Below, one piece after another: positions 40,011-45,020 of a stretch of 64,000 nucleotides of DNA. This stretch comes from Desulfobulbus propionicus (GTDB taxonomy: Bacteria; Desulfobacterota; Desulfobulbia; Desulfobulbales; Desulfobulbaceae). Positions within the stretch are counted from its first letter, which is position 1, and the number at the start of each line of letters is the position of its first letter. The stretch spans positions 20,470 through 84,469 of the forward strand of contig PDTC01000019.1 in the NCBI GenBank assembly GCA_002748735.1, given 5' to 3'. The position numbers and the translations under genes were made by a program. A model generated the notes under the pieces. The model was not told the DNA's origin, ran no database searches, and saw nothing but the letters and a program-made list of their open reading frames with translations.

Positions 40011-41462
40011 TCAGCTGATCACAAGACTCACCGGGCAGTGGTCTGAACCCGTGACGTCGTCATGGATCTCAGCAGCAACAACCCTGTCTCTGCTGGCAGG
40101 ATCCACAAGGAAATAGTCAATACGCCAGCCAATATTTTTTACTCTGGCGTTGAACCGATAACTCCACCAGGTATAGTTCCCAGGCTCTTCATGAAAGAGA
40201 CGGAAGGTATCGATATAGCCGGCAGCAACAACCTCGTCCATCCAGGCCCGTTCCTGCGGGGAAAATCCGGGGTTGGCGGTGTTAGCGGCCGGATTGGCAA
40301 GGTCAATCTCCTTGTGCGCCACATTGAGATCACCACAGAGCACCACGGTTTTGTCCTCACTCAAACGGTCCATGTGATGCATCACCGCCTGATTGAACCG
40401 CAGTTTGAAATCCAGCCGTTTGAGGCCAGGCTGGGCATTGGGAAAGTAAATATTGACGAGATAGTAATCCTCAAACTCAAGGGTGATCACTCGCCCTTCA
40501 CAGTCCCATTCATCATTACCCAGGCCGTAGATGACCTTCTCAGGTTCTCTTCTACTAAAAACCGCAGTCCCAGAGTAGCCTTTACGAACAGCAGGATTCC
40601 AGTACACATGATAGCCCGGAGGCGGTTTCACCGTATCGGGTAATTGCTCTGGCAGCGCCTTGATTTCCTGGAGGGCAAAGACATCAGCATTACTTTCGCT
40701 GAGCACATCGAGGAAACCTTTTCCCAGGGCAGCTCGCAATCCATTGACATTCCATGACATTAGTTTCATCTGAGAGGCCGCAATCACTGATATTTTGGGG
40801 ACCCGACGAGGTGTTACGCCAAGACGCGGGCATATGTGGGTAAGTACGCAACGGTCACAATGGGGGCTGACAGGACGGCAGGTTCCCTGACCGAAGGCAA
40901 CCAGCAGTCTGTTAACTTTGAGCCAGTACTGCCGAGGCAGCCTATCCCTCAGTGCCATCTCCGTTTCCAGTGGAGATTTCGTTGCCACATAGCCCCAGAT
41001 ATTCATAATGCGATGGACGTGGGTATCCACGCAAATCGCCGGAACTCCAAAGGCGGTCGCCAGCACAAGGTTGGCTGTTTTCCTGCCGACACCTGGCAGC
41101 TGCAGCAATTCCTCCATGGTGGCCGGGACCTGCCCGTCGAACTTCTCTGCAAGCTTTTCTGGTAACTTATGGAGATACGTGGCCTTGTTCCGAAAAAAAC
41201 CGACCGGATAAATCAAATTTTCGATCTCCTCACGGGACAGCATCGCCAGCTCTTCAGGATTCTGAGCACAGGCAAAGAGCCTACGTGCGGCAACAGCCGT
41301 GACCTCATCCCTGGTTCGAGCCGAAAGGATGGTGGCCACCAGCACCTTGAAGGGGTCTTTTGTCTGGGTAGCGATGAGGTCAACCACTGGGACCTCGTAT
41401 CCGGCTACTTCGCGTTCTAGAAGATCTAAGGCACAGTCAACAGGAAAGGTTACGATCACCAT
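40011..41462 (-). CDS. Fused endonuclease III - exonuclease III (bifunctional base-excision repair enzyme)
   Basis: 483 residues in one uninterrupted frame. Residues 1-225 are endonuclease III: helix-hairpin-helix LPGVGRKTA with catalytic Lys128, Asp146 in VDTHVHR, and a complete iron-sulfur Cys set (C195-x6-C202-x2-C205-x5-C211). After a linker of about ten residues, residues 232-483 are a full exonuclease III/AP endonuclease: MKLMSWNVNGLRA, LQEIKA, GDLNVAHKEIDL, IDYFLVD and GSDHCPV. The first half removes oxidised pyrimidines and nicks by beta-elimination; the second half cleans the 3' block and cuts AP sites. It lies 15 bases downstream of the CpsD gene. Confidence 0.93.
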   Translation of the reverse strand: MVIVTFPVDCALDLLEREVAGYEVPVVDLIATQTKDPFKVLVATILSARTRDEVTAVAARRLFACAQNPEELAMLSREEIENLIYPVGFFRNKATYLHKLPEKLAEKFDGQVPATMEELLQLPGVGRKTANLVLATAFGVPAICVDTHVHRIMNIWGYVATKSPLETEMALRDRLPRQYWLKVNRLLVAFGQGTCRPVSPHCDRCVLTHICPRLGVTPRRVPKISVIAASQMKLMSWNVNGLRAALGKGFLDVLSESNADVFALQEIKALPEQLPDTVKPPPGYHVYWNPAVRKGYSGTAVFSRREPEKVIYGLGNDEWDCEGRVITLEFEDYYLVNIYFPNAQPGLKRLDFKLRFNQAVMHHMDRLSEDKTVVLCGDLNVAHKEIDLANPAANTANPGFSPQERAWMDEVVAAGYIDTFRLFHEEPGNYTWWSYRFNARVKNIGWRIDYFLVDPASRDRVVAAEIHDDVTGSDHCPVSLVIS

Positions 41463-41476
41463 AACATCCCAGCATA

Positions 41477-42379
41477 TTACCGACTGTAATAATCTTTCTG
41501 CTGGTAATCATAAAAACCAAACACTTTAGTATCGAGCACGGTAGACTCGTAGGCATTAAAGACGATGCCAAGAATTTTGTCTTTACCAAGGATTTCCACC
41601 ATGCTCTTGATATGCTCACGCCGGGATCTGCCGTAGCGGACCACAAGAATAACGGCGTCAACCTGCTGGGCAAGCACAGCGGTTTCAGAAGCGGCATGCA
41701 GAGGAGGGCTATCCAGCAAGACCAGACGGTCTTCATAGCGCAGAACCACTTCCTCTACCAGACTGGCCATTGCTCCAGAACCGAGCAGTTCTGCAGGGTT
41801 AATCGGCGGAGGACCTGCAGGCAAGATGGACAACTTATCAACGCCAGAGGGAAAAATAAGGTGCTCCAGGGGAACCTGATCCAGGAGAAAATCGGTCAAG
41901 CCCCGATCACTCTCCAAACCGAACAGGCGGTGCTGAGTTGGCTTGCGTAAATCACCATCGACCAACAGGCTGTGGGTGTCAACACCTTGGGCCATAGAGA
42001 TAGCCAAATTGGCGCAGATAAAACTCTTTCCTTCTCCAGCATCAGCACTGGTTATTAAGAGAGAACGAGGGCGTTCTCCCTGAGAGGGATGAAGAATTCG
42101 GGTTCGCAGGGCGCGGATATTTTCGGTGACAACAGCATTGGCCGTAGCAGCAAAAATCAACCGGTCATCCCATTTTCTCCCGCTAAGACTCCTGGTCGAT
42201 CTTTTTTTCGACCGAGGTTCCTCTCCTGCAGACACCTTACGTCCTGAGGAAGCCAAAAGTTTGGAGGTAACCGCATCAGCTGCTTGATGATCCCCTGAAG
42301 ATGTTGCCTCTGCCTTTTCTTTTCCCTGAAAATTTCTGTTCTGCTCGGCTCTGTTCAGTATCTTATATACCTTTCCCAT
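41477..42379 (-). CDS. CpsD/CapB-type tyrosine autokinase for exopolysaccharide
   Basis: 300 residues. After a basic, low-complexity N-terminus (1-75) comes the BY-kinase ATPase: Walker A TSADAGEGKSF, Walker A' SLLVDGDLRKP, and Walker B RLVLLDSPP. The C-terminal tyrosine cluster YDYQQKDYY is the usual autophosphorylation site. It regulates polymer length together with the Wzz-type protein two genes upstream, as a separate kinase polypeptide. Confidence 0.88.
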   Translation of the reverse strand: MGKVYKILNRAEQNRNFQGKEKAEATSSGDHQAADAVTSKLLASSGRKVSAGEEPRSKKRSTRSLSGRKWDDRLIFAATANAVVTENIRALRTRILHPSQGERPRSLLITSADAGEGKSFICANLAISMAQGVDTHSLLVDGDLRKPTQHRLFGLESDRGLTDFLLDQVPLEHLIFPSGVDKLSILPAGPPPINPAELLGSGAMASLVEEVVLRYEDRLVLLDSPPLHAASETAVLAQQVDAVILVVRYGRSRREHIKSMVEILGKDKILGIVFNAYESTVLDTKVFGFYDYQQKDYYSR

Positions 42380-42471
42380 TGATCAAATCTCTCTACCTAA
42401 TTGACAAACTGATACACCTACCGCGATAATTTCTATGGCAGCCGCCTGTCAAGAGGAGAAAACGCCTTGGT

Positions 42472-43401
42472 TTATGGCAGCAATTGCAAAGCGAAGAACA
42501 GGAGGACTACGACAACGAGTACTCCTGTAATCCACCCCCCTAGCCGTTTCCAACTCTTTTTTCTAAGATGTTGAGGCAGCGGCAGATCGTCCCCTTCACC
42601 GGGAAAGTGCAGTTCAGCTATACACTCCTCAACCAGTTCAGCCGAGATAGTCGGTTTGCTGTCAGCAAAACCACTGATCAGAGCATGATCGCAAACAATG
42701 TTGATCAATCTCGGCGTTCCCTTGCTGACGCGGTGTATGACAGCCATTGCCTCATCTGTAAAAATATAGAGTTGCCTGCTCCCGGCTGCCCGCAGGCGAA
42801 AGAGGATATACTGTTTCGTCTCTTCCTGATTAAACAGGCTCAGATGAAAACGAATACCTATGCGTTGTCTGAGCGGGAGAAGTCGTTCATCACGCATTTG
42901 ATCATTTAATTCCGGCTGCCCTACCAGAAAAATAGACAATACATCCTGCCCTTCCACATCCATATTTGAAAGCAGCCGGACCTCTTCAAGGAGATCAACC
43001 GGTAGGACCTGGGCCTCGTCAATAATCAGCAAGACCCGCTCATTTCTCTGATAACACAGCTGGAGATACCTCTCGAACTCGAGAAGAAACATCGCCTTGT
43101 TACCGTCCCAAGGAAGCTCGAATTGTTCTGAAATATAAGAAAAAAATTCATCTCTCTTCAGGAGAGGATTATTAATCATACAGACTCGAATACCTACATC
43201 AATGGTGTCCAGCAGTGCCTGTAGTAATGTCGTCTTACCGATTCCCACTTCGGCCGTAAGTACCAGAAAACTCTTCTTACTGATCACCCCGTACTTCAGA
43301 ATAGCGAATGCCTCTTTATGAGTCTCGCTCATATAGACCACTTCAGGATCCGGGATAAGATCAAACGGCTTCTTTGTAAGCCCGTAATATTTCGTATACA
43401 T
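42472..43401 (-). CDS. ExeA/XrtA-type AAA ATPase with C-terminal membrane helix
   Basis: 309 residues. It starts MYTKYYGLTKKPFDLIPDP, typical of the ExeA/GspA and exosortase-associated ATPase group. Walker A TAEVGIGKTT and Walker B VLLIIDEAQVLP follow. A single C-terminal helix (WITGVLVVVVLLFFALQ) anchors it. It lies between wzz- and cpsD-type genes, a gene order known from exopolysaccharide loci with exosortase, but no exosortase is visible here. Confidence 0.84.
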   Translation of the reverse strand: MYTKYYGLTKKPFDLIPDPEVVYMSETHKEAFAILKYGVISKKSFLVLTAEVGIGKTTLLQALLDTIDVGIRVCMINNPLLKRDEFFSYISEQFELPWDGNKAMFLLEFERYLQLCYQRNERVLLIIDEAQVLPVDLLEEVRLLSNMDVEGQDVLSIFLVGQPELNDQMRDERLLPLRQRIGIRFHLSLFNQEETKQYILFRLRAAGSRQLYIFTDEAMAVIHRVSKGTPRLINIVCDHALISGFADSKPTISAELVEECIAELHFPGEGDDLPLPQHLRKKSWKRLGGWITGVLVVVVLLFFALQLLP

Positions 43402-43439
43402 AATCGCTCAGTTTCCCAGGGATAAATGTCCCGATATCC

Positions 43440-45020
43440 TCACAAAATAATCATTCCTCTATACCAGGCATATCCCACGGCAGCCAACAATGCACTCCAG
43501 GCCATCACAACCATTATTGCCAACAGCCAGTCCATCTGTTGTCTCTTTCTTTTCTCCTGTTGCAAAGTGATCAGCGGAATGGAACAGACAACAGGGATTT
43601 CAACAACATTTTCAATTTCCATCGGGTCCTTAAAAGAGGTGTCAACAAAGCTAAGTAAAAAGAATACCCCTGCTCCCAGGGTCAACCCTGCAGCCACAGC
43701 CACAGCCAACATTTTTAAGAACTCAGGCTTAATTGGTTTTTCAGGGCGGCGAGCTGCATCAATAATCTTGAACTTGCTTCCCTTCTGCTTACGTTCAAGA
43801 TGCTCCACCGATTCTGCCTGGAGGTTCTGGGCAACCAAGTAATCATAATGACGACGTAACTCATTATAGTCTCTGGTCAGCGCATTCCACTCTGCCTCAC
43901 GGACCGGGACAGCCTCGATCCATTGCTGATATCTCTCGATTTCCTTATTGATCCGCACCTGATCAATACGTAACTTTTTAATGTTTATATCAATATCTTT
44001 GCTCTGCAGTCGTAGCCCTTGAATTTCCTGGCTTTCACCGAGCCCTTCTGAACGTCTTCCTCCGGTTCCTCCCCCTGACACACCACCTTTCTGTTCATCC
44101 AATTCGTTCTCCAGGCGAAGAATCAGCTCCTTGGTCCGACGCACTTCCGGATGTTTGTCCGTATACTTTGACAGCAGAGACCTAAGATACGCCTGTAGTT
44201 GCTGAAGCCTTACATATGGATCAGAAGATTCAGAGATCTGAGGAGTTGTCCCCCCTACTGCATCCACTGTAGTTTGTACTGCAGCCAGCCGGTTGCGCAG
44301 GGAGATTTGTTCTTCCACCATAACCTTGGTTCGTTCCAGATTCTGGATTGAATCCTGGATACCCTGATACTGTTCATGGAGGGAATTAAGTCGATTCAGA
44401 TTTGCTGGACGTTGCTCAGGCATCTCATTGTAATGTTTCAGCTTATAGTCGCGCATGGTCTGTTCCATGCCGTCCAGACGCTCCTTGGCAATAGCCAGCT
44501 CATTCTCCGTGTACTTTGACGTCTCGGTGGCCCGCTCTTCACGGTACTTGAGATTTTCCTCAATAAATTTAGCGGCCAAGGCATTGACGACCTTCATCAC
44601 ACTGTCGGGGTCGACGCCTTCATACGAGACAGTAAAGGTATCGCCACTACGAGCAGGAGTAATGGCTATGTCCTTACGCATTACGTCGATAACATCTTCA
44701 ATGGGCAGACGCTCTCTGGCCTTTTCGTACAAGGAAAACTGGAAGATAATCGCCTCAAGATTGTTACGGCTCATCACCAGCTGACTCAGTGTACTCACCG
44801 TGTCCTGTAACTGCCGTTTCTCTTCCGGCGCCATACGAGAAGGGTTAATCTGCTGCCGTTCATAACTGAGCAGTGCTTCGCTCTGGTAAATTTTTGTTGT
44901 CAGTAGGTAGCTGACAAAGCCTGCCACAACTGTCAACAACAGGCAAAGAGCCAACAGTTTCCACCGTTTGAGAAGCAAATCCAGATATTTTCTAAGGAGT
45001 TGACGCTGTTCGACTTCCAT
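43440..45020 (-). CDS. Wzz/GNVR-type exopolysaccharide chain-length determinant
   Basis: 526 residues with a membrane helix at each end (about 19-37, LLALCLLLTVVAGFVSYLL, and about 430-455, plus a last helix near 500). Long periplasmic coiled coils lie between, and EWNALTRDYNELRRHYDYLVAQ is the GNVR-type segment. It sets polymer length or export in the inner membrane. It is the first gene of the minus-strand trio and diverges from the phosphatase gene with 53 bases between. Confidence 0.87.
   Translation of the reverse strand: MEVEQRQLLRKYLDLLLKRWKLLALCLLLTVVAGFVSYLLTTKIYQSEALLSYERQQINPSRMAPEEKRQLQDTVSTLSQLVMSRNNLEAIIFQFSLYEKARERLPIEDVIDVMRKDIAITPARSGDTFTVSYEGVDPDSVMKVVNALAAKFIEENLKYREERATETSKYTENELAIAKERLDGMEQTMRDYKLKHYNEMPEQRPANLNRLNSLHEQYQGIQDSIQNLERTKVMVEEQISLRNRLAAVQTTVDAVGGTTPQISESSDPYVRLQQLQAYLRSLLSKYTDKHPEVRRTKELILRLENELDEQKGGVSGGGTGGRRSEGLGESQEIQGLRLQSKDIDINIKKLRIDQVRINKEIERYQQWIEAVPVREAEWNALTRDYNELRRHYDYLVAQNLQAESVEHLERKQKGSKFKIIDAARRPEKPIKPEFLKMLAVAVAAGLTLGAGVFFLLSFVDTSFKDPMEIENVVEIPVVCSIPLITLQQEKRKRQQMDWLLAIMVVMAWSALLAAVGYAWYRGMIIL

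Follow-up and report, generated by a model that had tools for sequence, protein, structure and literature searches.

Does one gene in this bacterium encode two consecutive enzymes of base excision repair, and does it matter that they are joined? The question is raised by an open reading frame in a 64,000-nucleotide stretch of the Desulfobulbus propionicus contig PDTC01000019.1 (hereafter, the window), in which a sequence-only reading had placed endonuclease III (Nth) and exonuclease III (Xth) in a single polypeptide.

Two repair domains in one reading frame

The gene occupies positions 40011..41462, as that reading had it, and lies on the minus strand. Its frame runs from 41462 to 40014 (483 codons, stop at 40013-40011) with no internal stops; the plus-strand translation of the same interval is interrupted by stops. 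This single frame encodes an entire Nth and an entire Xth-family AP endonuclease with a short linker between them, and the Pfam domains HhH-GPD, HHH, and Exo_endo_phos are all present above their cut-offs on the one protein. The features referred to below are the following.

40011..41462, minus strand: fused gene, 483 aa, ATG at 41462 and TGA at 40013-40011
40815..41462, minus strand: Nth (endonuclease III) domain, residues 1-216, from Pfam, NCBIfam, and a match to PDB EndoIII over residues 11-216
41079..41081, minus strand: Lys128, Schiff-base lysine of bifunctional glycosylases
41025..41027, minus strand: Asp146, catalytic aspartate
40830..40880, minus strand: Cys195, 202, 205, and 211, [4Fe-4S] site
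40770..40814, minus strand: linker, residues 217-231, poorly conserved relative to the domains
40767..40769, minus strand: Met232, place of the old Xth start
40014..40769, minus strand: Xth-family AP endonuclease domain, ExoA/APE1 type, residues 232-483, from TIGR00633, TIGR00195, and 5cfe
40665..40667, minus strand: Glu266, metal ligand
40323..40331, minus strand: Asp378 to Asn380, GDLN motif
40038..40043, minus strand: Asp474-His475, SDH motif

The same two-domain layout is found in 95 distinct fused proteins, including that of the window (96 distinct proteins less L112, which is split). All 17 sites checked, whether catalytic, iron-sulfur, or otherwise conserved, are invariant in all 95, and mean pairwise identity is 67% in the Nth domain and 62.5% in the Xth domain versus 27% at the junction. 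At the level of sequence, the two domains are joined in one chain. The host assembly is fragmented and incomplete (1.81 Mb in 30 contigs, 85.6% complete), which leaves some room for a sequencing or assembly artefact, but the 95 proteins come from many assemblies, named isolates and single-contig genomes among them. Since base composition puts the chance of a frame this long from any single start at about 4e-10 and the layout recurs in 95 distinct proteins, an assembly error is very unlikely, and we give it almost no weight.

The first half is an Nth-family protein. Pfam HhH-GPD matches residues 42-176 (78.8 bits, cut-off 26.2) and HHH matches residues 107-135, also above its cut-off. The NCBIfam nth model (TIGR01083) aligns with residues 34-202 (profile positions 24-192) at 189.0 bits, below the equivalog cut-off of 211.7; the protein is therefore assigned to the Nth family without being classed as a TIGR01083 equivalog. 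The sequence-only reading was right about Lys128, Asp146, and the four-cysteine iron-sulfur site, and each of these residues is present in 95 of 95 proteins. The HhH-GPD family membership, the Lys/Asp pair, and the cysteine spacing (C-x6-C-x2-C-x5-C) are all as in endonuclease III (Nth/NTHL1), from which the fused protein differs in its C-terminal AP endonuclease and in scoring below the nth equivalog cut-off. Among solved structures, the Nth half is closer to 9nzc (E 1.2e-57), human-type NTHL1 (7rdt, 4.4e-44), and 1p59 (2.6e-42) than to 2abk (4.9e-30), which we take to be E. coli endonuclease III; the solved EndoIII sequences 9nzc and 9nzd differ at the place of Lys128. The intact catalytic residues strongly support the prediction of glycosylase and beta-lyase function for this half.

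The second half resembles ExoA, Mth212, and APE1 in sequence rather than E. coli exonuclease III. Pfam Exo_endo_phos covers residues 235-475 (112.4 bits, cut-off 24.5), and both the NCBIfam xth model TIGR00633 (residues 232-482, 311.9 bits, cut-off 99.05) and TIGR00195 (294.6 bits, cut-off 182.55) score well above their thresholds. PRK11756, presumably the model for exonuclease III of the E. coli type, reaches 130.8 bits against a cut-off of 280. The closest solved structures are 5cfe (E 1.8e-86), 5j8n, 3w2x, and 3fzi/3g00, followed by APE1 entries at about 1e-68; we take 5cfe to be B. subtilis ExoA and 3fzi/3g00 to be Mth212. The structures of ExoA, Mth212, and APE1 match the whole domain, and 1ako, which we assume to be E. 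coli exonuclease III, is a distant member of the same superfamily (3.6e-25). The active-site set Asn238, Glu266, Tyr339, Asp378, Asn380, Asp449, Asp474, and His475, with roles that we assigned by presumed correspondence to APE1, is invariant at each position in the 95 proteins, and this constraint strongly supports a predicted AP endonuclease function. The union of two successive base-excision enzymes proposed from the sequence is thus upheld, and the label of exonuclease III for its second member is not.

Spread within the Desulfobulbales and origin of the fusion

The taxonomic distribution was surveyed in 160 Desulfobulbales genomes (all at least 90% complete except the window's own) and in 297 genomes of the phylum, 12 of which belong to the order and 285 of which do not. 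The fused protein is matched at E 1e-50 in 152 of the 160 genomes of the order, and in 126 a single match extends across both domains. These include G388, which has a TGA at the Trp237 codon. Three further genomes (G249, G423, and G422) have fused genes with longer linkers that break the match in two. Frames in G249, G418, G422, G423, and G331 were checked on the DNA, since listed lengths can run through stops; the listed 541-aa frame of G418, for example, is really two frames with a TAA between them. An uninterrupted fused frame is present in 128 of the 160 genomes. The remaining 32 comprise G388, five in which the gene is split in place (G009, G331, G332, G418, and G420), ten genomes of family f12 that keep Nth and have no Xth half, three more of the same kind (G035, G426, and G029), five in which a contig end, a locus end, or a run of N interrupts the gene (G033, G334, G428, G435, and G150, all but G435 with matches that nonetheless span the domain junction), and eight without a match at 1e-50. 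Of these eight, six have no match even at 1e-18; the exceptions are G444, with two fragments, and G032, with a pair of weak, separate matches.

Elsewhere in the phylum the fusion is found, among the matches listed (in which fused proteins rank at the top), in only two of the 285 genomes, G104 and G241; in the others each listed match covers one half only. The sequence-only reading took the two enzymes to be separate in nearly all bacteria; within this order the fused form is the usual one. The Nth sequences of G104 and G241 fall inside the fused clade of the Nth tree on long branches, which we read as acquisition by transfer, with mis-binning as an alternative. The long frames of G197, G171, and G211 were considered as new fusions and rejected; they look like overlapping frames around ordinary separate Xth and Nth genes. 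G354 has two full-length fused copies (L135 and L159, 70% and 61% identical to the window protein); its listed contamination is 5%, and it may be a mixed bin.

The search with the whole protein covered the host's phylum, plasmids, and phages, and was complemented by a pattern scan of named genomes. Among the 562 plasmid and 39 phage records matched, none covers 80% of the protein. Of 190 related loci from named genomes, the best 80 bear titles that include Desulfobulbaceae, Desulfobulbus, Desulfogranum, Desulfocapsa, Desulfurivibrio, and the cable bacteria Electrothrix and Electronema, and some read simply Deltaproteobacteria, Proteobacteria, or the like. Judging by these named relatives, we take the host to belong to the Desulfobulbales. 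Named isolates with the fusion include Desulfogranum marinum DSM 2058 and Desulfobulbus rhabdoformis DSM 8777.

Phylogenetic trees were built with 55 rows labelled as fused, about half of the available fused sequences. In the careful Nth tree (91 rows, after removal of eight outlying, truncated, duplicated, or broken rows), the fused, split, and f12 sequences together with G426 and G035 lie on one side of a branch that separates them from other Nth (support 97/69), and support is 100/99 when the unfused L129 and L131 are added to the grouping. The Nth of G029 groups with unfused Nth. The unfused Nth of f12 are nested among fused sequences (95/95, with the bootstrap not fully settled); on the quick tree, fused clades that leave out the f12 Nth were not rejected in two AU tests (p-AU 0.74 and 0.90). 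Because of the nesting in the careful tree and the many fused members of family f12, we favour loss over an ancestral state for these genomes, though this is unproven. Nine of the ten carry an Xth at another locus, as if the lost activity had had to be replaced; this Xth clusters with ordinary Xth, apart from the fused ones. No such Xth was found in the tenth, G399. For Xth, an AU test does not reject a tree that unites every fused sequence in one clade (p-AU 0.52). Two stand-alone Xth genes of family f49 (L127 in G071 and L128 in G306) are 60% and 53% identical to the fused half and were placed among fused Xth in the quick tree; they perhaps represent an Xth half that moved alone. One origin of the fusion followed by several fissions and losses is the best account of these trees, short of proof. 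Since lineages in which the fusion has been undone persist (G009, G331, G332, G418, G420, and f12), tethering is not indispensable.

In the window's assembly, the other HhH-GPD proteins are one MutY (above its cut-off) and one protein nearest to glycosylases of the 3-methyladenine/DR2438 type (below the cut-offs); the remaining Exo_endo_phos protein comes closest to PRK05421 models (below the cut-offs) and matches no Xth model. Nfo was not found in this 85.6% complete assembly. The fused gene is provisionally the only Nth and the only AP endonuclease of the Xth or Nfo type seen there, provisionally because the assembly is incomplete. Nfo is matched in 25 of 37 genomes searched, 24 of them over the cut-off, so in many genomes the fused AP endonuclease is not the sole one. 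In G031 (C85:16411-18694) the fused gene and a match to nfo (endonuclease IV) converge from opposite strands, with about 20 nt between them.

The window also contains exopolysaccharide genes (tyrosine autokinase, ATPase, and chain-length determinant; 41477-45020) on the same strand as the fused gene, ending 14 nt upstream of it. Their best NCBIfam models are XrtA/PEP-CTERM models, below cut-off, and the autokinase exceeds the eps_fam cut-off. A conserved operon was considered and rejected: each of the three genes is matched in only 11 of the 80 named loci (with flanks of unequal length), and they are for this reason not linked to the function of the fused gene. On the other side, a 123-aa frame at 39523-39894 matches nothing in Pfam or NCBIfam (E 0.001) or among the 80 named loci.

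The linker and the question of one chain or two

Unfused Nth of the phylum, among those examined, mostly end about nine residues after the last cysteine, and the true linker of the window protein is therefore about 10-15 residues long, close to the ten or so first estimated. Solved Xth proteins start just before the SWNVNG motif. Across the 95 fused proteins the stretch from the last cysteine to Trp237 spans 22-53 residues (median 27; longer in G422 and G423) and is basic in composition (25% K+R, 4% D+E). A flexible tether would be expected to be variable and basic in this way; because both the length and the sequence of the stretch vary, no fixed docking geometry is conserved.

The linker is also a site of repeat insertion. 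In G418 (L112/L137), G423 (L139), and G422 (L205), a palindromic repeat lies between the domains, with copies in roughly 53, 49, and 52 places, respectively (40 candidates scored). In G423 and G422 the repeat is read in frame and yields a longer, repeat-encoded linker; in G418 the inserted stretch carries the TAA that splits the gene. A different hairpin repeat sits at the junction in G009 (L116), where the halves are in different frames; it has 24 matches in its own genome (both strands) and none in two congeners. The inter-domain stretch of G331 (L142/L206) is 222 nt long, with strong hairpin potential and stops, and its gene is likewise split. Judging from these five genomes, the linker is thus a tolerated landing site for repeats.

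Separate proteins might still be made, through internal initiation at Met232 or cleavage of the linker. Met232 stands at the place of the Xth start, and an in-frame ATG is present within the 14 codons before Trp237 in 41 of the 95 genes, the window's among them (any of ATG, GTG, or TTG in 57). Against this, the Met232 column holds M in only 4 of 95, a start codon with an upstream Shine-Dalgarno-like 4-mer occurs near Trp237 in only 27 of 95 by a loose test, and no such 4-mer was seen in the sequence just before Met232 of the window. In the other 38 proteins none of the three start codons occurs in those 14 codons, so that a single chain is obligatory in at least these 38. An internal start that yields only separate proteins, which the sequence-only reading had set against a true fusion, is accordingly not what the clade displays, and we consider the two-protein reading improbable. 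A minor extra internal product from Met232 is possible in the window protein, as is an additional internal product in the 57 proteins with a nearby start codon. In lying inside a longer chain, and in the 38 proteins without a start codon near the old start, the domain differs from free ExoA, Mth212, and APE1.

Possible hand-over between the two repair steps

With moderate confidence, we propose that the glycosylase hands the AP site to the tethered hydrolase, the two working domains carrying out consecutive steps of base excision repair within one polypeptide. The constraint on their residues gives strong support to the view that both domains are functional and joined. We further infer that both activities meet on one lesion, that bypass of the lyase would outweigh 3' trimming, that the tether would speed turnover, and that kinetic channelling would keep the AP site hidden by the join. 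The Nth domain would locate a damaged pyrimidine and remove the base via Lys128; the ExoA/APE1-type domain, always at hand on its short, flexible, basic tether, would take the same site next and hydrolyse the backbone 5' of it, before or instead of slow beta-elimination. In an alternative order, the lyase would act first and the tethered domain would then trim the 3' unsaturated aldehyde. Either route would leave a 3'-OH ready for the repair polymerase. The fusion would substitute for the transient hand-over of other organisms, in which a free AP endonuclease displaces the glycosylase.

The lyase step and product release of NTHL1 are rate-limiting and APE1 bypasses the slow lyase step (PMC13022620), a relief likewise described in PMC12190888; glycosylases stay bound to their product and are displaced from it by AP endonucleases, with no stable complex formed (PMC7465369). 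The hand-over between NTHL1 and APE1 in human cells involves the same two activities in succession (PMC13022620), but there the partners are separate proteins that form no stable complexes (PMC7465369), and here they are one chain. APE1, Mth212, and ExoA are moreover capable of nucleotide incision repair, a direct cut 5' to the damaged nucleotide, and E. coli Xth is not (PMC8307549). Since ExoA, Mth212, and APE1 can incise directly, the fused protein might choose nucleotide incision on the same lesions. It is conceivable, if rather doubtful, that this is a single-chain incision enzyme that never releases the AP site and could choose between base excision and nucleotide incision; Nth would flip and remove the base, and the tethered domain would cut 5' of it in the same encounter with DNA.

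Removal of the toxic 3' unsaturated aldehyde left by the Nth lyase was the role first suggested for the fusion, with beta-elimination followed by 3'-phosphodiesterase action. The lyase route is available, as Lys128 and Asp146 are intact, and Xth-family enzymes can trim such ends. The Xth half is, however, of the ExoA/APE1 type and not like ExoIII, and in the case of NTHL1 the lyase step is bypassed by APE1 (PMC13022620), so that aldehyde removal is not the only or the likeliest job, and as the main role we regard it as unlikely. Somewhat less unlikely is a functionally neutral fusion, in which independent enzymes share a chain kept by inheritance or for 1:1 expression, with no benefit from hand-over. 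Recurrent fissions and losses in lineages that survive, a linker conserved neither in sequence nor in length, and the repeat-encoded linkers of G422 and G423 are all consistent with neutrality. Its difficulty lies in the retention of the fusion in 128 of 160 genomes of the order, although minor changes suffice to break it, as G388 and G420 illustrate, and in the 38 of 95 genes with no start codon near the old Xth start; neither observation measures a benefit. The tethered hand-over is the reading that we prefer.

Other fusions of repair activities are known, such as Cho with a PolIII-epsilon-like exonuclease and Ada with an AlkA-like domain; like the present protein they join repair activities in one chain, but they concern other pathways and domains (PMC1839093). 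By title, opening of the abstract, or, for PMC1839093 and PMC3950489, selected passages, no published description of an Nth-Xth fusion was recognised in a body of literature that takes in only a minority of subscription papers and no bioRxiv preprints. The fused protein is probably present in automatic annotations. We rate it as a conserved natural union of two known families for which no earlier description was recognised.

The AP site is a toxic intermediate, and the value of its hand-over is hard to measure because glycosylases and AP endonucleases form no stable complexes as they pass it on (PMC7465369). Evolution has joined both enzymes across an order and re-separated them in several lineages. 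Fused and split versions of the same enzymes therefore exist in nature, making the effect of linkage directly testable and providing a natural test of whether the physical connection of two repair steps matters. The fused protein may also serve as a compact single enzyme that nicks DNA at a damaged pyrimidine and leaves a clean 3' end.
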